The notes under the pieces were generated by a model, which was given only the letters and a program-made list of their open reading frames with translations, did not search any database and was not told the DNA's origin. From positions 1-64,000 of the forward strand of contig JASHON010000087.1 in the NCBI GenBank assembly GCA_030041095.1: a stretch of 64,000 bases of DNA, in the 5' to 3' direction. The DNA is from Terriglobia bacterium. Its GTDB lineage: Bacteria > Acidobacteriota > Terriglobia > UBA7540. Position numbers and translations under genes: made by a program. This document shows positions 55,433 through 64,000 of the stretch, one piece after another (the first letter of the stretch is position 1; each line of letters opens with the position of its first letter).

Positions 55433-57688
55433 ATGCGGAAGCGATTCAAGGCAGGCGAGAAGGGGATCTCACGGCGGCGATTTCTTGTGGATGCAGGCGC
55501 TGCGGCGGCTTGTGCCGTAACCTCGCGCCCGGGCAAGGCATCAAACGCTCCGAGCGGCGCCGCGTCGCACGTGGACCTTGTGAGTGTAGAGGCCGGGCCC
55601 GGCCGATCCACGCATTCTTTTATTCCCAATCGTGCTCTCGGGACTTCGATCGATATTCTCCATTCCTCCGCTTCACCAAACTCCACCTGTTGCCCGAACG
55701 GGGCCGTGGACGAGTTGTACGTCGAATCGACGATCAAGCAGTGTCTATCGGCCGGTTGGGGACCGATGACATACCGTCAAAACACCGAGCTTCAAATGGC
55801 GGCATGGCACTGGAATCAGCACGGCACGTGGAGCGACGCGGCAAACAAGCAAGGTTACTTCACCGGCAGCGCGGAGCCGGCAGATTTCCTCCGGCATTCT
55901 TACGGCTACCCGTTGCCACATAGCGGGAATGCTGGCAACGGTGGTTCCACGAACGAGTTTTCCCGCCTGACCGACGGCAACCCCCAAAGCTATTGGAAGA
56001 GCAACCCCTATCTCACATCCCGCTACACCGGCGAAGATGATTCGCTGCACCCGCAATGGGTGGTGATTGACCTCAACAAAGTGGAAGGCATTAACGCCGT
56101 TCGGATCGCCTGGGCCAATCCGTACGCCACGAAATATGAAGTCCAATACTGGACTGGCTCGGACGCCATGGACGAGCCGACGAAGGGGGAGTGGAACGCG
56201 TTTCCGCGAGGAATCGTAGAGGATGGGCGCGGCGGTACGGTCACCTTGAATCTCGCCGCAGAACCGGTCGAAGCGCGCTTCCTTCGCATCCTGATGTCCC
56301 ATTCCTCCAATACGGCAGGAACACATGGTCCAGACGACCCTCGCAACTCCGCAGGCTACGCCATTCACGAAGTCTATGCAGGGACGTTGAGCCGGACCGG
56401 TGAGTTCATCGACCTCATCAGCCACTCTCCGGATTCGAACCAGACGCCAACTCATTGTTCGTCCATCGATCCGTGGCACTCGGAAAGCGACCTCAACCTG
56501 AGAGTTGGAGATCAGACAGGTTTCGATCTTTTCTTCACGAGCGGGGTGACGAATAACCTTCCCGCCATCGTGCCCATCGCGATGCTTTATGGCACGCCTG
56601 AGGATGCGGCGGCGGAAGTGGCCTATCTTTACCGCAGGAAATATCCGGTGGCTTATGTGGAGATGGGAGAAGAGCCGGACGGGCAATACATCTTGCCCGA
56701 AGATTACGCGGCACTCTACGTGCAGTTTGCCGAAGCCATTCACCGCCTGGTCCCTGACGCCAAGCTCGGCGGGCCTGTCTTCCAGGGAGTGAATGAAGAC
56801 ATCAAGGTGTGGCCGGATGCTGAGGGCCGCACGTCGTGGCTTGGGCGATTCCTTGATTATTTGAAGTCGCACGGCCGCATGTCCGATCTCGCCTTCATGT
56901 CGTTTGAGCACTATCCGTTCGATCCTTGCACGGTCACTTGGAGCGATCTTTATCGTGAGCCGGAGCTCGTGAGCCACATTCTCGAGGTGTGGCGTGAAGA
57001 CGGCCTGCCCGAAAATATCCCAAGGTTCATCACGGAAAGTAACCTCTCGTGGGGCGTGGATCAAGCCTTCGTTGATATCTTTGGCGCGCTCTGGCTGGCC
57101 GATTACGCGGGAGCTTTTCTCACCGCCGGGGGCGACGCGCTTTATTACTACCAATTCTTCCCCTGGCCGGTATTTTCCGGCTGTCACGGCTGGGGAACGT
57201 TTGGCATGTTCACCGCCGGCCCGGATTTCAAGATCCGGCAGTACACCTCACAATATTTTGCGGCGCGGCTCATCAACCTGGAGTGGGTAAAGCCTGGCGG
57301 CGATTTGCACCGCCTCTATCGCGCTTCATGCGACGCAACCGACGCGGATGGGCATCGCCTGGTGACGGTCTATGCCGTGGAGCGGCCCGACGGGATGTGG
57401 GGATTGATGCTCGTGAACCGTGACCAGGAAAACGCACACACCGTGAAGATCGCCTTTCGGGACGAGAGCGAAGGACGGGACGGCTTCTTTTCGGGGCCGG
57501 TCGCTATGATCACGTTCGGCCAAGAGCAGTACGAATGGCACGAGAACGGTGCAGACGGCCATCCCGCACCGGACGGCCCGCCTGTGACCCAGACGGTTTC
57601 CGGAGGCTCCCAAGCCATTTTTACTCTTCCCAGAGCCTCCGTTACGGTCCTGCGCGGAAAGGCCGAGGGCTTGGTGTCGCATCCTTGA
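55433..57688 (+). CDS. Tat-exported F5/8C-domain protein with GH-A-like barrel
   Basis: About 751 residues. A twin-arginine signal (SRRRFLVDAGAAAACAVTS) is followed by a discoidin-type carbohydrate-binding domain (about 165-320: RLTDGNPQSYWKSNPYLTS, PQWVVIDLNKVEGINAVRIA, ARFLRILMSHSSNTAG). The remainder looks like a (beta/alpha)8 barrel: YVEMGEEPDGQYILPEDYAA may hold the acid/base Glu, and RFITESNLSWGVDQ the nucleophile, as in clan GH-A families such as GH39. The family number is uncertain. The ATG at 55433 has GAAAGG upstream; a GTG at 55412 is the alternative. Confidence 0.72.
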   Translation: MRKRFKAGEKGISRRRFLVDAGAAAACAVTSRPGKASNAPSGAASHVDLVSVEAGPGRSTHSFIPNRALGTSIDILHSSASPNSTCCPNGAVDELYVESTIKQCLSAGWGPMTYRQNTELQMAAWHWNQHGTWSDAANKQGYFTGSAEPADFLRHSYGYPLPHSGNAGNGGSTNEFSRLTDGNPQSYWKSNPYLTSRYTGEDDSLHPQWVVIDLNKVEGINAVRIAWANPYATKYEVQYWTGSDAMDEPTKGEWNAFPRGIVEDGRGGTVTLNLAAEPVEARFLRILMSHSSNTAGTHGPDDPRNSAGYAIHEVYAGTLSRTGEFIDLISHSPDSNQTPTHCSSIDPWHSESDLNLRVGDQTGFDLFFTSGVTNNLPAIVPIAMLYGTPEDAAAEVAYLYRRKYPVAYVEMGEEPDGQYILPEDYAALYVQFAEAIHRLVPDAKLGGPVFQGVNEDIKVWPDAEGRTSWLGRFLDYLKSHGRMSDLAFMSFEHYPFDPCTVTWSDLYREPELVSHILEVWREDGLPENIPRFITESNLSWGVDQAFVDIFGALWLADYAGAFLTAGGDALYYYQFFPWPVFSGCHGWGTFGMFTAGPDFKIRQYTSQYFAARLINLEWVKPGGDLHRLYRASCDATDADGHRLVTVYAVERPDGMWGLMLVNRDQENAHTVKIAFRDESEGRDGFFSGPVAMITFGQEQYEWHENGADGHPAPDGPPVTQTVSGGSQAIFTLPRASVTVLRGKAEGLVSHP

Positions 57689-58542
57689 ACGAGCTTGCGC
57701 TGGTGGCGTTCGCCAGACCTCCCTTCTGCTCGCGAAAACCTCTCTCCTCACATACTGCCCTTACTTAAGTTTTCGAAGGGCTTGGCGATCAGTGGCGTCC
57801 TGACATCCCTTTCAGAGTCAACAACTTACTGGGATAGGATGCAACGAATTCTTATAACTAATTTGTTATCAACACGTTGCTGGGTTTGTTGGTATTGGCT
57901 CCCACTGCCGTTATTTGTTTTCAGCAAGTTACTGGGTTTGTTGGTCATTGTTTTTGGCGCCGCCTATCTTCAATAACCTACCAAAGTTGGTTCCATGGTC
58001 TCGGTTCATTCCGGCGTTTTCAACCGGCTCGATGGGGTGACCGGCGCCGCCCATTCATCCATTCCTCCTTGGCTTCAGGCACGACTTCTCCTGTGGCTCG
58101 AAAGTCCGCATCCGCTTCACTTCCTGCGCCCGCTGGTTGCGCTCAAGCTGCAAGCGCAACTTTGTGACCGTCTCGCCCGGCCGGAGTGGAACTGCGGGCC
58201 CCGCCCCCCGCCCACGGGGGCGGGAACGGGCCTGATCCTGCCTCCCGGGGGCGCAGCGCGCAAGAGTGGGAGCTTACCCGGAACAGTATACTATAGTAGC
58301 CTATTAATTTCAAGCAGCCGGAAGCAGGCCGCTTCATCGCCGGGGGTTCAAAAAGGCGTCAAAAAGTTGAAAATCATGGCACGCGCGCGACTGTGCCTAT
58401 GGGTTATCAAGAACGGGAGGGAAGAGCGCAGGTCAAGTTGCTGAGCCAGCCTGCGGGGCGGAAAGAGCACGGAGCCGTTCGGACCTGCGCGCCCTCCCGT
58501 GCCGGTGTTTGCCGCAATCGCGCGATGTGTTACGTTTGAAGA
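57689..58542. other. Long gene-poor region after the glycan locus
   Basis: 854 bases without a recognisable gene. The part 57760-57960 is A/T-rich and carries three degenerate 52-bp units (see separate entry). A very stable hairpin CCCGCCC-ACGG-GGGCGGG lies at 58207-58224, and AGTATACT, a palindrome, near 58287. Several open frames cross the region but none shows family similarity or a good ribosome-binding site. Confidence 0.5.
57825..57945 (+). repeat. Three degenerate tandem units of about 52 bp
   Basis: CTTACTGGG (57825), GTTGCTGGGTTTGTTGGT (57876-57893) and GTTACTGGGTTTGTTGGT (57928-57945) recur at intervals of 51 and 52 bases. The last two differ at one of 18 bases. Unit ends also match in part (TTTGTTATCAACA against TTTGTTTTCAGCA). 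The tract is far richer in A and T than the genes around it. Confidence 0.48.
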
Positions 58543-59562
58543 ATGATGAGTAGCCAAAAACGAAAGTGCGCGAGCAAGGAATCAGAACCGGACGCCCGGC
58601 GGCGCTCGAGAGTAAGGGCCGGTGTGGCCGCCCTTGTCCTCACCATGCTGATGTGCTGCCCTACGCTCACTCGCTCTCAGGACGTGGTGAGCGATGCGGT
58701 TGCCTGGCTACCTCCCGGCACGATCGCGCTGGAGTATTCTGACGCTACCGCCTTACGCGGCCTGCCTGATTACCAGACCCTTCGACGGCACTTCCTTGGC
58801 CGGAACTTGCAATCGCTCGAGAATTCGTTGGCGACTATCGGCATCGCCGAAAGCGATATCAACCAACTGGTGCTGGCGTGGCAGTCGGGGAACGGAAAGG
58901 CGTTCCAGCTCGAAGGCCTGGCCACAGGAACTTTTGACCCTGACGTAATGGCCCAGCGCGCCTCCGCCGCGGGGATCAAGCCGGCAAATGTGGACGGCAG
59001 CAAGGCCTATTGCGTCGCCGCGGGCTCCAGCCAGACGTGCGTTGTTGTTCTTCAGGGGTCACTCGGCATCTTCGGTCCTCTGCCCGTCCTCAACGCGATG
59101 CTCCAGGCTAGAGCGGGTACAGGCTCAGGACTGGCAGGAGGCGGAAACCTTGCCGCGCTTGTCCAGGGCGCGCGAGCGAATGCGCCGATCTGGGGCGTCG
59201 CGCTCGGCTCTGCCGTCTCCAAGTGGTTCGAGTCATGGATGCCGGCGGGAAATAGTCTGCAAATGAACTGGGGTACGGCGTTTCGAGACGTGAGCTCACT
59301 CTCGTATCGGGTGAACGCCGGCGACGACATCGACCTTCGCGTCAAACTGATGTGTGCTTCGGATCAGGCTGCCGCCAGCTTGAGTCAACTGATGCAAGGT
59401 CTGAAGCTCATTCAGAGCATGGCGTGGCAGCGCGCCCACCCTTCACAATCCAACCCTTTCAGTGACCTGGATATTGAGGCGGCGGACAATCAAGTTACGT
59501 TCCACCTTACGGCAAGCTATGCCGCACTGGCAAACCCGGGAATGCTGGGGAAGCAGCCGTGA
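58543..59562 (+). CDS. Secreted or membrane-anchored protein of unknown function
   Basis: 339 residues with an N-terminal hydrophobic segment (AGVAALVLTMLMCCPTLTRS) after a long basic start, so exported or anchored. The mature part holds VAWLPPGTIALEYSDATALR, LENSLATIGIAESDINQLVL and VVVLQGSLGIFGPLPVLNAM. I recall related secreted proteins in Acidobacteriota but no function. The C-terminal half has a two-layer alpha/beta feel with Ala/Ser-rich helices. Its stop codon is the first base of the purine-rich repeat tract bordering the decayed defence island. Confidence 0.65.
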   Translation: MMSSQKRKCASKESEPDARRRSRVRAGVAALVLTMLMCCPTLTRSQDVVSDAVAWLPPGTIALEYSDATALRGLPDYQTLRRHFLGRNLQSLENSLATIGIAESDINQLVLAWQSGNGKAFQLEGLATGTFDPDVMAQRASAAGIKPANVDGSKAYCVAAGSSQTCVVVLQGSLGIFGPLPVLNAMLQARAGTGSGLAGGGNLAALVQGARANAPIWGVALGSAVSKWFESWMPAGNSLQMNWGTAFRDVSSLSYRVNAGDDIDLRVKLMCASDQAAASLSQLMQGLKLIQSMAWQRAHPSQSNPFSDLDIEAADNQVTFHLTASYAALANPGMLGKQP

Positions 59563-59621
59563 GAGGCAGAGACGAGAGACAAGAGGCGAGAGACATGAGG
59601 TAAGAGACGAGCAGGCCTGTC
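59561..59621. repeat. Purine-rich GAGAC repeat tract, left copy
   Basis: About 60 bases built from GAGAC, GAGGC and AAGAGAC words, ending in GCAGGCCTGTCTTT. The same words and a similar end (GCAAGCCTGGCTTT) make up the longer tract at 62295-62422 in the same orientation. The two tracts bracket the decayed defence island. Confidence 0.65.
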
Positions 59622-59768
59622 TTTGCACCGGAGGACAACCGGTTCTTCGTTCACCTCGCGCAGGTACATCTCGATGCGGGTTTTGAGCTCCTCCTTCGAC
59701 TTCACCCGTATCCCACGCAGCAGGGTTTTCGCCATTTTCCCAAAGAGTGATTCAACCAGGTTCGGCCA
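59619..59768 (-). pseudogene. Remnant of an IS630-type transposase C-terminus
   Basis: The frame reads NLVESLFGKMAKTLLRGIRV, then KSKEELKTRIEMYLREVNEE and PVVLR. This matches the end of IS630-family transposases (WLN-VE-FF-KM-R--LRGIRV-SK-EL--RI---I-E-N--PVVFRW), including the region after the last catalytic Glu. The rest of the transposase is absent or shifted in frame upstream (59770-59870). It lies directly after the DUF499 remnant. Confidence 0.6.
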
Positions 59769-59877
59769 AATTCTGCGGGAGTCCCCGCTTTGTGCCAAAG
59801 CTCCACTTGCCGGCAGACGTGAAGCACCTGCTCCATCTTCCCATCGAACTCAGCGGCGCGCCTTGCGGAATCCCTCG

Positions 59878-59961
59878 CGCAATAGCAAATTCGTCAGGAT
59901 TAAACGAGCGGCCTTCGCGGACTTCGGATCGCGGTGTTGTAACTTTGTACCAGGGTTCCAT
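59878..59961 (-). pseudogene. N-terminal remnant of a DUF499 ATPase
   Basis: 28 residues read MEPWYKVTTPRSEVREGRSF followed by NPDEFAIA. The start of DUF499 proteins, large AAA-type ATPases of predicted anti-phage operons, has the pattern PWYKV-TPR-D-REGR---SEFA. It starts 17 bases after the DUF1828/1829 stop, an operon-like spacing. Similarity stops abruptly after the Ala at about 59878; the other 900 or more residues are gone. Confidence 0.58.
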
Positions 59962-59977
59962 AAACACGCCTTGTCAG

Positions 59978-60751
59978 CTAGCCGGCCAGGGCATCCACAT
60001 ATGTGGAGCGTTGTGACCAGATGGCTGGGGCCACGCTGTAAGCATTGAGAGCCTCAACCACATCACCGCCGACCGGCTGCTCCTGATCGTTTAAGAATGC
60101 GAAAGCCTCGGCCTTTGATTCTCCCGCTCGTGCGGCTCGCGTGTCGCTCAGAGTCCAGAGGTAGGCGAAAATATTGTCCTTCTTTGGGGTGGAGATTGCC
60201 TGCAAAATCCGCTCAGGACGCCGTCGAGATTTGGGAATCAGGAAGTCGATTCCGTGATCGTAGCCACTCTTGCCGGCGAGCTTTACCCTGGGCGTGTAGC
60301 GGATGTCATGGCTATCCAGAAAGTTCCGAACCTCCTCAAAGAAGAAACTGGCAACCCGAGGCTGGGCCATCACAAACATATCGTTGACAGCCAGCATCGC
60401 CTGAGCCAGCGAATGTAGCCGCTGGCCAAGATTGGCATCAGACGCTTCGACTACTAGCTGCCGATTTTCTACACGCACTCCCAAACCCTTGAGTACGCTA
60501 TCGAGAACCATCTTCCGTTTCGGGGTATCGAGCTCGAGGCCGCTTGTTCTCAGGTCAGACAGGATGTACCCGTCGTCCGATAGCATAATGTTTCCGTTGC
60601 GTCGTGTTGCGTACACCTGAAGGTGATCGTTATGCCGGTCAAGGAAGGGTGTTGTTAACTCACAGGTTTCCCCCATCTCTTCGGCAGAGAGTCCCTGGCG
60701 AAGCCAGCCTACATATGCATCGATCAGTTTCTGGCACTCTGCCCTATTCAC
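59978..60751 (-). CDS. DUF1828/DUF1829 protein
   Basis: An intact 257-residue protein. The N-terminal DUF1828 part (about 1-95) contains CELTTPFLDRHNDHLQVYAT, NIMLSDDGYILSDLRTSGLE and KRKMVLDSVLKGLGVRVEN. The DUF1829 part (about 110-250) has RYTPRVKLAGKSGYDHGIDF, LIPKSRRRPERILQAISTPK and FAYLWTLSDTRAARAGESKA. The basic and Asp/Lys-rich second part resembles restriction-like nuclease folds (D-----IDF---K pattern), an inference only. The GTG start overlaps the DUF6978 stop as GTGA. It sits inside the remains of a DUF1156-DUF499 defence operon yet keeps a full frame. Confidence 0.8.
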   Translation of the reverse strand: MNRAECQKLIDAYVGWLRQGLSAEEMGETCELTTPFLDRHNDHLQVYATRRNGNIMLSDDGYILSDLRTSGLELDTPKRKMVLDSVLKGLGVRVENRQLVVEASDANLGQRLHSLAQAMLAVNDMFVMAQPRVASFFFEEVRNFLDSHDIRYTPRVKLAGKSGYDHGIDFLIPKSRRRPERILQAISTPKKDNIFAYLWTLSDTRAARAGESKAEAFAFLNDQEQPVGGDVVEALNAYSVAPAIWSQRSTYVDALAG

Positions 60752-61182
60752 ACGATCACCCCCTGAACAGGCGGCGGTGACTCAATGCTACAGAACGCGC
60801 AGAACTCATGGAACGTCGTTCCTGGATCCGTCAACAGCCTGAAACTGTTGCTGTCCACAGGGTAAGCCCACCTATCATCGAAGCCTTCCCTGAACAAATG
60901 CATGTGGGTACCCGACAGCCGCTGGCCATCAGGATTGGTGTGGGGCGCCCCATCTATGTCCAGACGTGCCAGTACAACCACAGTTTGCACCCTGTTTTGA
61001 AACCTGAGCTTGGTGAGGCGCAGCATACCTCGCCAGATGTCCAGCAGGAATGTCTCTCTGTCGCTGGGGTCGGCAAGCTCAAACGTTTCGTCGATCCCTG
61101 GAGAAATGGCGATCGAGGCCGGGGCGCGCACAAAATGCTTTACTACCCGCATAAGATGATCGGCTTCTTCTTGTGTCAGCAT
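60748..61182 (-). CDS. DUF6978-like protein, partner of the DUF1828/1829 protein
   Basis: 144 residues: MLTQEEADHLMRVVKHFVRA, then ETFLLDIWRGMLRLTKLRFQ, VVVLARLDIDGAPHTNPDGQ, GTHMHLFREGFDDRWAYPVD and FHEFCAFCSIESPPPVQG. From memory this is the DUF6978 family. The DIDGAPHTNPDG---THMHLF run with three His residues could bind metal or be catalytic, but no reaction is known to me. It overlaps the next gene by 4 bases, so the two are made together, as in toxin-antitoxin or two-subunit effector pairs. Ten bases upstream ends the DUF1156 remnant. Confidence 0.67.
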   Translation of the reverse strand: MLTQEEADHLMRVVKHFVRAPASIAISPGIDETFELADPSDRETFLLDIWRGMLRLTKLRFQNRVQTVVVLARLDIDGAPHTNPDGQRLSGTHMHLFREGFDDRWAYPVDSNSFRLLTDPGTTFHEFCAFCSIESPPPVQGVIV

Positions 61183-61191
61183 TCTGAAACT

Positions 61192-61389
61192 CTACCTTGG
61201 TACGACTAGCAGCATAGCATCAAGAAGGCGTTTTTCCTCGCTGTCCTTGGGATAAAGCGCCGAAAGGGCATTGGCGAGGCGGAGGAAATCGGGGCTGCGC
61301 TGGGTTTCGGCCTCGAGCGTGGCGCGCAACGCCGCAGCCTGGCCGCCTGCCTGGAGAAGCATCGCGGCATGAACGTGGTCGAGCGTTGT
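61192..61389 (-). pseudogene. C-terminal remnant of a DUF1156 DNA methyltransferase
   Basis: The last 65 codons of the frame read TTLDHVHAAMLLQAGGQAAA, LRATLEAETQRSPDFLRLAN, ALSALYPKDSEEKRLLDAML and LVVPR, then a stop. This is the usual end of DUF1156 adenine methyltransferases of anti-phage operons (LDRVHAAML---G---ALR, RLA-ALSALYP-GSEEKR-LD). The upstream 800 or more residues are missing: the REP-transposase unit begins within 12 bases of the first recognisable residue. Confidence 0.62.
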
Positions 61390-61399
61390 CGCCTGTGGC

Positions 61400-61423
61400 G
61401 CAGGCATCCTGCCTGCTTTTTTT
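61400..61423 (+). repeat. REP hairpin at the end of the transposase remnant
   Basis: GCAGGC-ATCCT-GCCTGC (61400-61416) is a perfect 6-bp stem, followed on the plus strand by seven T. It lies at the 3' end of the REP-associated transposase remnant, where such palindromes are expected. It shares the form GCGC-N-GGC-(A/T)TC-NN-GCC with the hairpins in the element at 44545-44674. Confidence 0.62.
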
Positions 61424-61908
61424 CGTCGGCTGAAACCCCGCGCCATACCAGTAAGGAAATTCCTCGGCATCCTTGCACAATCCCGCCTTAACGGGATTGT
61501 TCCTGATGTACTCGCGAATCCGGAGAAAATCGTTATCGTCCCGCACCAGGTGGTCGTACGACTCCCGCTGCCAGAATTCCTGTCCCGCACGGCCGAGTAT
61601 TTTATTGGCTTCGTTGCCGGTATAGGACTTCCAGTTGTGCAGGACCGAGGAGAGGGTGTGTGGCTTCACCGGTGTTACCTGGACGTACACATGGTTGGGC
61701 ATCACCACATAATCATGGAGTTGATAGCGCTCGCCGTCGAAATGCCGCAAGGCCGTCTCGACGATACCTGCAATGGCAGGCCGCTCGAGCCAACGCGGCC
61801 CACGCCTTGGTCCAAGTAGTTGTCAATCTTCAAGGAGCGGTTTTCATTGAGCTTTTCCAACTCTCGCTCCGGAACCTGTTGATGCTGCCGGCACGTGGCG
61901 CTAGGCAT
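61417..61908 (-). pseudogene. REP-associated tyrosine transposase (RAYT), frameshifted and mutated
   Basis: The Y1-type HUH transposase reads PERELEKLNENRSLKIDNYL in one frame, then PRWLERPAIAGIVETALRHF and DGERYQLHDYVVMPNHVYVQ in another, and continues to REYIRNNPVKAGL with the catalytic Tyr region. There is a frameshift near 61815. The HUH motif, normally NHVHV, is NHVYV, so one metal-binding His is lost. The N-terminus is short. The element separates the helicase and methyltransferase remnants and is associated with the hairpin at its 3' end. Confidence 0.77.
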
Positions 61909-62113
61909 GAACGATTTCGGTGGTGTCGGCTGGGAGAGGCAGGCCCTTTTCGGAGTATTCTTCCGCGAGCAACTGGAAGACGTTCGAGAGCTCCTCTAGC
62001 GCCGCCTCGCGGGTCGGCATCAGCGCGTAGCAGCCGGAGATAGCCGGTATCTCCGCTACCCAGGAACCGTCTTGCTGACGATACAAAACCGTCTTGTACT
62101 CCTCAAGCTTCAT
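61901..62113 (-). CDS. hicB-like: HicB-family antitoxin, orphan
   Basis: 70 residues: MKLEEYKTVLYRQQDGSWVA, EIPAISGCYALMPTREAALE, then ELSNVFQLLAEEYSEKG. This is the partially degraded RNase-H-like fold of HicB antitoxins, which neutralise HicA mRNA-cleaving toxins. No HicA gene is on either side; the downstream position holds the transposase remnant. The frame is open to 62425, but the upstream part codes for helicase remnant and repeat tract, so I use the ATG at 62113. It has no strong ribosome-binding site. Confidence 0.76.
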   Translation of the reverse strand: MKLEEYKTVLYRQQDGSWVAEIPAISGCYALMPTREAALEELSNVFQLLAEEYSEKGLPLPADTTEIVHA

Positions 62114-62140
62114 GAGCCGTACCGTTCTTGACGCCAGTTT

Positions 62141-62290
62141 AGCATGAAAGCCAAAAGCAATTCCCAGGGAATAAGCCTGAATGCCAAGTCGGAGGAGATT
62201 CCCTTCGCCTTGAGACGACGGAGTCGATTGCAGGATGTTGAGCTCTGCCAAGTCAGCAGCCGACAATGAGACGCTACGAAACTTCTCCGT
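62141..62290 (-). pseudogene. Remnant of an SNF2-type defence helicase (N-terminal region)
   Basis: The frame reads STEKFRSVSLSAADLAELNI, LQSTPSSQGEGNLLRLGIQA and YSLGIAFGFHA. In SNF2-type helicases of DUF1156/DUF499 operons the same run (FRSV-LSAADLA-L-ILQ-TPSSQGEGNLLRLGIQA-SLGIAYEFDPYF) comes just before the helicase core. Here the similarity breaks after GIAFGF and the core is absent. The 5' side ends in the purine-rich repeat. It is in the same direction as the other remnants, matching the usual operon order. Confidence 0.6.
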
Positions 62291-62294
62291 CGAC

Positions 62295-62422
62295 AAGGGA
62301 TGAGAGGCGAGAGACAAGAGGCAAGAGACAAGAGACGAGAGGCAAGAGACGAGAGACAAGAGACGAGAGGCAAGAGACGAGGGACGAGGGACAAGCGACA
62401 AGGGACGGGCAAGCCTGGCTTT
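62295..62422. repeat. Purine-rich GAGAC repeat tract, right copy
   Basis: About 128 bases of near-pure purine on the plus strand, built from repeated AAGAGAC, GAGAGAC, GAGGC and GAGGGAC words, ending GCAAGCCTGGCTTT. It is a longer copy, in the same orientation, of the tract at 59561-59621. All six-frame translations are low complexity, so it is not coding. Confidence 0.87.
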
Positions 62423-62508
62423 CAACTCTGGATTATCTTCACCCAGCGTTTCTTTCCTCTCGTCTCTGGTCTCTCGTCTCTAACTTCACGTTTTCCAGCT
62501 CTCGCCCA

Positions 62509-64000
62509 TCAATTAATTGACTTCAAGTAGAGCAGGGTCATATCGTCCTGGGCTTCGTCACTGCCCGTCCAGTCGGTAATGCGGCGGTAGATTTCAGCAG
62601 CCATCAGGTGGGGCGGGGAATCGAGCGCCTGGCGCGCGGCCTCTGCCAGCCTCATTTCTCCAAACTCCTCACCATAAGCGTTTTCAGGCTCAGTCATGCC
62701 GTCCGTGAAGGCGAGAACGATATCGCCCGGCTCGAGCGCGACTTGGGCTTGCTCGAAGCCGGCATTGGGGAACAGGCCAATGACGGTGCCGCCGCAGTCC
62801 AGCCGCAGTATCGTATCGCGGCGAAAGAGGAAGGGAGCAGGATGACCCGCGTTGGTATAGGTGAGAACGCGGGACGCGCGGTCGTAGTCCGCATAGAAGA
62901 AGGTAACGTACTTGGCGTCCGGCGTGTTGGCATAAAGCTGCCGATTGAGCCTGGCCACGACGCTGGCCGGGTTCTGTAGTCCGGCGCTCATCAATCCAGT
63001 CTGGCCGGTCTGGCCGTCGTAGAGTTGAGCTCGGACGGCAGACTGGATTCCCGCCATCAGAAGCGCGGCGAAAATACCTTTCCCGCTGACGTCGCCGAGC
63101 GCCAGGGCAACACGGTGGTCGTCGGTGAGGAGGAAATCGTAGTAGTCGCCGCTCACTTCGCGCGCAGGACGGCACGTGCCGAACAGTTGCAACCCAGGAG
63201 AATCCGGCACCGCCTGTGGAAAAAGCTGGCTTTGCACTTCCCGGGCTATCTTCAGCTCACCTTCCAGCCGCGTTTTTTCACGGGATTCAGCGAGGAGGCG
63301 CTCGACGGATGCGGTCATCGAATCGAAGGCCACGCCCAGGGCGCTGATCTGGTCGCGGGGAGGCAGGCCAACGCGGTAGGAGAAATCCCCGGCGCTCACA
63401 CGTTCCGTGGCCTTTTGCAGACGGTTAACCGTGAAGGTGATAGTTCGCGTGAGCGTGATGCCGATGATGAGAGCGATCAATTCAATGAGCAGAAACACCA
63501 CGCTGGCCGCCATAAAGATATAGACCGGAATGTTGGGAAAGCCCGTGATTAAATGGAGAAGTTGCCCGTCCAGCGACACGATTCGCGAGCTGACAAAAAC
63601 CAGAATCGGCTCACGCCGCAGGTTAAAGCCGGAAGAGTTCCACTCGATGGGATTGAGTGCAGAATAACCCTCCACCTCAACGTCGTACCACGCGGTGCGG
63701 GGGGGAAGTGGAACGGATGCTGAGCTGATGATGCCGCCCGTCACTCCGGACGACGAGCGAAGTTGAGCGCGGGAACCTTCACCCGTTACGCGAATCGTTA
63801 CATTTCCCCTCCCGAGCATCACGTGGACCGGGCCGATTCCTCTTCCTGCCCGGTCGAGCAGGGGAGAGGACAACGGCACTGATACCACGGAAGTCAGCGC
63901 TCCTGCGGCCGTCTGCCTCTTGCTCGCGGCGAGCAGAAAGAACGCGCCACGATCCTCCACGACTCCCGCAAACCCCTTTTCCGTGAGCCACGTTGGAACC
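62509..64000 (-). CDS. HAMP/SpoIIE (PP2C)-type serine phosphatase, 5'-truncated by the window
   Basis: The frame remains open past the right edge (residues before GTG 63960 read WLTEKGFAGV), so the start lies outside. Visible are an extracytoplasmic part, a membrane helix (IPVYIFMAASVVFLLIELIA), a HAMP domain (RTITFTVNRLQKATERVSAG), a short coiled coil (LLAESREKTRLEGELKIARE) and a SpoIIE/RsbU phosphatase domain: SGDYYDFLLTDD, LALGDVSGKGIFAALLMAG, YTNAGHPAPFLFRRD, IVLAFTDGMTEPENAYGEEF and DDMTLLYLK. It probably dephosphorylates an anti-sigma antagonist in a general stress cascade. Metal-binding Asp residues are intact. Confidence 0.92.
   Translation of the reverse strand, partial: VPTWLTEKGFAGVVEDRGAFFLLAASKRQTAAGALTSVVSVPLSSPLLDRAGRGIGPVHVMLGRGNVTIRVTGEGSRAQLRSSSGVTGGIISSASVPLPPRTAWYDVEVEGYSALNPIEWNSSGFNLRREPILVFVSSRIVSLDGQLLHLITGFPNIPVYIFMAASVVFLLIELIALIIGITLTRTITFTVNRLQKATERVSAGDFSYRVGLPPRDQISALGVAFDSMTASVERLLAESREKTRLEGELKIAREVQSQLFPQAVPDSPGLQLFGTCRPAREVSGDYYDFLLTDDHRVALALGDVSGKGIFAALLMAGIQSAVRAQLYDGQTGQTGLMSAGLQNPASVVARLNRQLYANTPDAKYVTFFYADYDRASRVLTYTNAGHPAPFLFRRDTILRLDCGGTVIGLFPNAGFEQAQVALEPGDIVLAFTDGMTEPENAYGEEFGEMRLAEAARQALDSPPHLMAAEIYRRITDWTGSDEAQDDMTLLYLKSIN

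Follow-up and report, generated by a model that had tools for sequence, protein, structure and literature searches.

We found that the window, the whole stretch of 64,000 nucleotides analysed here, carries on its minus strand two complete genes, A and B, which encode a DUF6978 protein and a DUF1828-DUF1829 protein, respectively. Our best explanation, to which we give about even chances, is that the two genes form an autonomous and portable phage-defence module, which was formerly cargo of an Hma (BREX-related) operon and is its only intact remainder here, with A as catalytic effector or toxin and B as its holder and sensor. Gene A (60748..61182, minus strand; 144 aa) matches PF22398 (E=2.4e-36) and the PADLOC model PDLC04538 for PDC-M24A (E=1.2e-44). 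Gene B (59978..60751, minus strand; 257 aa) matches PF08861 (1.3e-26), PF08862 (6.3e-23) and the PADLOC model PDLC04539 for PDC-M24B (3.9e-92); Pfam places DUF1828 at residues 34-122 and DUF1829 at residues 160-248. The stop of A overlaps the start of B by 4 bp (60748..60751, minus strand). The pair is not new: it is already catalogued in PADLOC-DB as PDC-M24, where PDC stands for phage defence candidate and is defined by 'guilt-by-embedding' in other defence systems (PMC10855318, PMC12255303). Both window proteins match the PDC-M24 models, and the pair is embedded between remnants of HmaB and HmaC, an arrangement with an intact counterpart in a relative, L021; no feature examined here distinguishes the window pair from PDC-M24, but its host operon is dead. 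NCBIfam yielded no relevant family, and an Rfam search of positions 57500-64000 gave no match. The original prediction was right in stating that no function is established for the pair, although it is an already listed candidate; in the literature, we found no published assay of PDC-M24 and no toxicity, defence or interaction data for DUF6978. What is new here is an evolutionary frame for PDC-M24, based on 80 loci, in which a two-gene cassette repeatedly enters hsdS-hsdR and HmaB-HmaC slots and also stands alone.

The operon around the pair survives in pieces. Upstream of gene A lie the last 67 residues and the stop of HmaB, a DUF1156 methyltransferase (61192..61395, minus strand; tblastn with residues 931-997 of L021 HmaB, match 61195-61395, 77.6% identity, E=4e-25), as the end of an open frame that stops at 61192, 9 bp from the DUF6978 start. 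On the other side, HmaC, a DUF499 ATPase, is represented by its N-terminal residues 9-36 (28 residues; 59881..59964, minus strand; tblastn with L021 HmaC, 85.7% identity, E=5e-11) and starts at 59967 (GTG) or 59961 (ATG), 10-16 bp from the pair. Residues 42-91 of the helicase HmaA are found further upstream (62147..62296, minus strand; tblastn with L021 HmaA, 50% identity, E=7e-10), and all three remnants lie on the minus strand in preserved order. The helicase, DUF1156 methyltransferase and DUF499 ATPase of an intact Hma or BREX-related system are thus reduced to fragments of 50, 67 and 28 residues. At the place of the missing HmaB part, and abutting the HmaB remnant, we found a Y1/RAYT-type transposase remnant (61496..61729, minus strand), whose PF01797 match (E=4e-5) is just above the cut-off. 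Between the RAYT-type and HmaB remnants, at 61400-61416, there is a perfect hairpin (GCAGGCATCCTGCCTGC) with a T run after it; this hairpin resembles a REP element of the RAYT. On either flank of the dead operon, at a distance of about 2.7 kb from each other, are tandem repeat arrays with 7/14-bp units of the AGAGACGAGAGACA type, one around the HmaA remnant (62292-62407) and the other beyond the HmaC remnant (59562-59611); this unit on both flanks could mark a rearrangement of the region.

In L021, Pfam and PADLOC recover the complete operon in the order HmaA (helicase)-UvrD helicase-HmaB-A-B-HmaC. Nucleotide homology between L021 and the window is continuous across the HmaB/A junction; hence, the Hma setting of the pair was inherited and is not a new insertion. 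The Hma neighbours are truncated genes that have lost most of their length and show no visible erosion by point mutation, while the surviving pieces of HmaA, HmaB and HmaC are still open and share 50-86% identity with the intact relative. As the lost pieces are large and the remaining ones open, the collapse of the operon looks like deletion plus insertion and not like slow erosion. The claim of the original prediction that an intact pair sits between two decayed neighbours is therefore right, but needs the qualification that these neighbours were truncated in large pieces and not point-mutated. A decayed Hma operon also occurs in G460 (locus L163), a genome from the family of the window genome, in which A is gone and the N-terminal half of B is lost. 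There, at L163:66-851 (minus strand), HmaB is fused in frame at residue ~888 to residue ~142 of B, which yields a methyltransferase-DUF1829 fusion directly before HmaC that retains the last ~115 residues of B; the HmaB frame is broken further upstream. This fusion may be a product of decay or an artefact of the metagenome-assembled genome (MAG).

To place the pair in a wider context, we relied on a census of 80 loci from many phyla, which stem from one scan of genome contigs, many of them from MAGs. They are the hits that agreed best with a single peptide pattern, thus a non-random sample, and their genes were called by a simple longest-ORF rule. B directly follows A in 76/76 loci with enough sequence (the other 4/80 stop at contig ends), and among these 76 loci we found none with A in absence of B. 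The 4-bp overlap of the two genes recurs in 75/88 homologous pairs. A and B are thus an obligate overlapping gene pair, as the expected two-component module implied, and share this feature with type II toxin-antitoxin systems, which consist of two small operon genes that usually overlap.

Defence operons turned out to be a frequent setting, as had been anticipated. Type I restriction-modification (RM) genes, which were recognised in representative loci by their Pfam domains (N6_Mtase/HsdM_N, Methylase_S, HSDR_N, T1RH-like_C), lie on the same strand with 43/76 pairs, a lower bound where contigs end. In 30/76 loci the pair is located between Hsd genes of the same strand, typically in the order hsdM-hsdS-[A-B]-hsdR, while in 13 further loci Hsd genes of the same strand flank it on one side, in many cases since the contig stops there. 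As background, none of 12 control windows (20 kb each) contained Type I RM genes. In 149 genomes of the phylum, we counted 148 Methylase_S matches at ~2 per gene, i.e. about one hsdS per 6 Mb; hence, by chance 76 loci should include fewer than 0.3 neighbourhoods of this kind. Abi_C, TIR, Fic, KwaB, PDC-M02 and PDC-S23 are the known or candidate defence genes co-embedded in the slot. In L061, L071, L075, L078 and L058, a gene for Abi_C (abortive infection C-terminus) directly follows the pair and precedes hsdR, so that two accessory modules share one slot. Another modification-based host is seen in an Acidobacteriota-like genome of the same class, in which the pair lies directly behind a single-gene N6_N4_Mtase-Mrr_cat fusion (L155:3118-4773, minus strand), and in L101 and L102 it lies behind a truncated methyltransferase. 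Temperate phages carry the pair in their lysogeny region as well: in Staphylococcus phage 37 it is flanked by repressor and integrase, and in Streptococcus phage MissF it lies in the region at the integrase end. It also occurs on plasmids, and free-standing copies are common. An Hma setting was found only in L021, where the host is intact, in the window and in G460. The more specific proposal that the pair belongs to the Hma methyltransferase/ATPase system thus did not hold, and we rejected the pair as a specific Hma component given the 43/76 pairs with Type I RM; with Hma in three cases only and free-standing copies common, it rather appears as itinerant cargo.

This mobility is reflected in the divergence of the proteins. 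Across 19 RM-embedded loci, distances correlate with r 0.92 between A and B and 0.98 between HsdM and HsdR, whereas r is 0.14-0.18 for A or B against HsdM or HsdR; these correlations ignore species kinship, which tends to raise all values. In a quick A+B tree, starred branches carry at least 11 changes of the RM label. The window falls inside a free-standing group, with L021 and its intact Hma operon just outside. The pairs most closely related to that of the window (L017-L020 and L022; 66-74% in A and 79-81% in B) are free-standing in unrelated contexts, and when they are compared with each other, nucleotide homology stops at the pair edges. Since A and B co-diverge with each other and not with HsdM or HsdR, and since homology of free-standing copies ends with the pair itself, we conclude that the pair is a portable module.

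Purifying selection acts on this module across relatives: pairwise dN is 0.10-0.21, dS is saturated, and dN/dS, where computable, is 0.03-0.09, also among free-standing pairs without Hma. The window proteins deviate at 1/34 and 1/57 conserved columns, as live homologues do. The module has thus been constrained over the long term, and relaxation is not evident in the window; these data do not date the constraint to after the death of the operon. Hence, the claim that selection holds the pair stands for the family, but not for upkeep after operon death; G460, from the same family, lost DUF6978 and the N-terminal half of B. Survival beside dead genes is a weak argument, and we rejected it as proof of selection: the neighbours disappeared in large pieces, and dS towards relatives is saturated. 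Taken by itself, the local contrast also argues only weakly for selection, because the neighbours are truncated and their surviving pieces still 50-86% identical to the intact relative.

In protein A, the residues R64, R73, N83, D85, H93, H95, E99 and G100 are invariant across 64 aligned homologues. H81, H93 and H95 are kept even in A partners of only 15-26% identity that are located in front of distant DUF1828 genes, which bears out the histidine motif pointed out in the first protein, and DUF6978 is probably much wider than PF22398. The structure of A was predicted with pLDDT 91 and pTM 0.85 from an alignment from which rows of plasmid and phage records were left out. The predicted fold has no match in Foldseek searches of PDB and BFVD or with VIA-align, and sequence searches of solved structures with the family profiles of A and B gave nothing significant. 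From its secondary structure alone, a RelE/BECR-like arrangement of DUF6978 came into consideration, but we do not claim it.

Protein B was predicted with pLDDT 92 and a pTM of 0.57, at which the placement of its domains is uncertain. Structure comparison matches its part from residue ~130 to 257 with PD-(D/E)XK enzymes at Z 8-11.7 overall (AF1548 11.7, Can2 11.5, PspGI 11.0, BstEII 10.5, Card1 9.9), and the alpha-beta-beta-beta-alpha-beta core of this fold is present in the predicted model. The catalytic pattern, a D followed by (D/E)xK in the next strand, is missing: by positions placed from secondary structure and spacing and not from superposed coordinates, D169 is kept in 58/63 sequences, while in most of them 184 is Q, R or K and 186 is I or V. 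The nuclease-like character ascribed to the second protein thus applies to its fold, but not to its catalytic motif. The acidic residues E139, E/D140, D169 and D203 are conserved, and DUF1829 could have a non-canonical active site formed by them. Residues 14-131 match secretion-chaperone and YbjN-like proteins (Z 7.7-9.6), a suggestive likeness by which DUF1828 may be secretion-chaperone-like in the predicted model.

We suggest the following mechanism. A would be the catalytic effector or toxin, a role for which its conserved residues are the argument, and B, with its secretion-chaperone-like DUF1828 and pseudo-nuclease DUF1829, would hold A inactive. B might further sense infection or inhibition of the host system and then release A, which would lead to abortive infection in the way of PrrC and DarTG from Type I RM loci. 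The toxin-antitoxin guard that had been proposed for the pair is a plausible reading. If confirmed, it would add a two-protein guard to the few effectors that shield restriction systems from phage anti-restriction; the residues to mutate first are H81, H93 and H95 in DUF6978. PrrC is a single anticodon nuclease that is held by the RM complex itself. In EcoprrI, its gene lies inside the Type I RM locus and the effector fires upon inhibition of the enzyme (PMC12707154); it shares the embedding with our pair, but is a single protein without DUF6978 or DUF1828. DarTG2 from an EPEC island is a two-gene toxin-antitoxin module embedded between hsdS and hsdR of a Type I RM system (PMC12255303), and hence occupies the same slot, but with unrelated proteins, an ADP-ribosyltransferase and a glycohydrolase. 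HipAD (DS-6) is a validated system, in which DUF1829 is part of the HipA-partner protein (DUF3037-DUF1829), modelled to bind effector and DNA (PMC13092281). As a defence module, it resembles the pair in its two genes and in the DUF1829 of the second protein, but its effector is the HipA kinase, whereas the partner of B is DUF6978, and its DUF3037 replaces DUF1828. For Hma itself, a DUF499-centred BREX-related system, three core genes have been described (PMC12839542); its operon is the dead host in the window and the intact one in L021, but the pair is outside these core genes (PMC12839542).

Other explanations have to be weighed against the proposed guard. The roles could be reversed, with B as effector nuclease that cuts DNA by a non-canonical PD-(D/E)XK site and A as its inhibitor or activator. 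We consider this unlikely: DUF1829 does match the folds of restriction enzymes and of CRISPR ancillary nucleases (Can2, PspGI, BstEII and Card1, Z 9.9-11.5) and its acidic residues 139, 140, 169 and 203 are highly conserved, but position 186, the lysine of (D/E)xK, is I or V in nearly all sequences, position 184 is Q, R or K (R or N in phage homologues), and it is A and not B that carries the residues invariant in the most diverged pairs. Still less probable to us is that the pair is no independent entity, but an accessory that tunes or extends the enzyme of its host operon, for example as regulator of HsdR or of methylation. In several loci it fits tightly into the hsdS-hsdR slot and overlaps one or both of its neighbours by 4 bp, and is thus probably co-translated with the RM operon, and the HmaB-HmaC slot is of the same type. 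Against such an accessory speak the free-standing and prophage copies, of which the former are also under purifying selection; moreover, the divergence of A and B does not follow that of HsdM or HsdR, and many unrelated defence genes occupy the hsdS-hsdR slot (PMC12255303).

A different question is whether the copy in the window still functions. It may have been left over passively when the operon recently collapsed and lack a present function, a reading that is compatible with any mechanism of the family and that we regard as a serious possibility, albeit somewhat improbable. The neighbours were removed in large pieces with open remainders, no promoter-like site stands out for the window pair, and in the similar Hma operon of G460 the pair decayed as well, which is also a point against our best explanation. 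On the other side, the window proteins are off at only 1/34 and 1/57 conserved positions, an observation with little power if the collapse was recent.

Going beyond the autonomous defence module, a bolder proposal, which we hold to be rather unlikely, is that DUF6978 represents the first family of a toxin fold without structural match here; its active site would be H...HxH, and a chaperone-like/pseudo-nuclease partner able to detect anti-restriction proteins would keep it in check. The pair would then be a two-protein guard recruited by unrelated modification-based defence systems, namely Type I RM and Hma. Distant DUF1828 genes of the same class (L140-L148) are each preceded by a gene of 146-172 aa that keeps the H...HxH signature and is often missed by Pfam.
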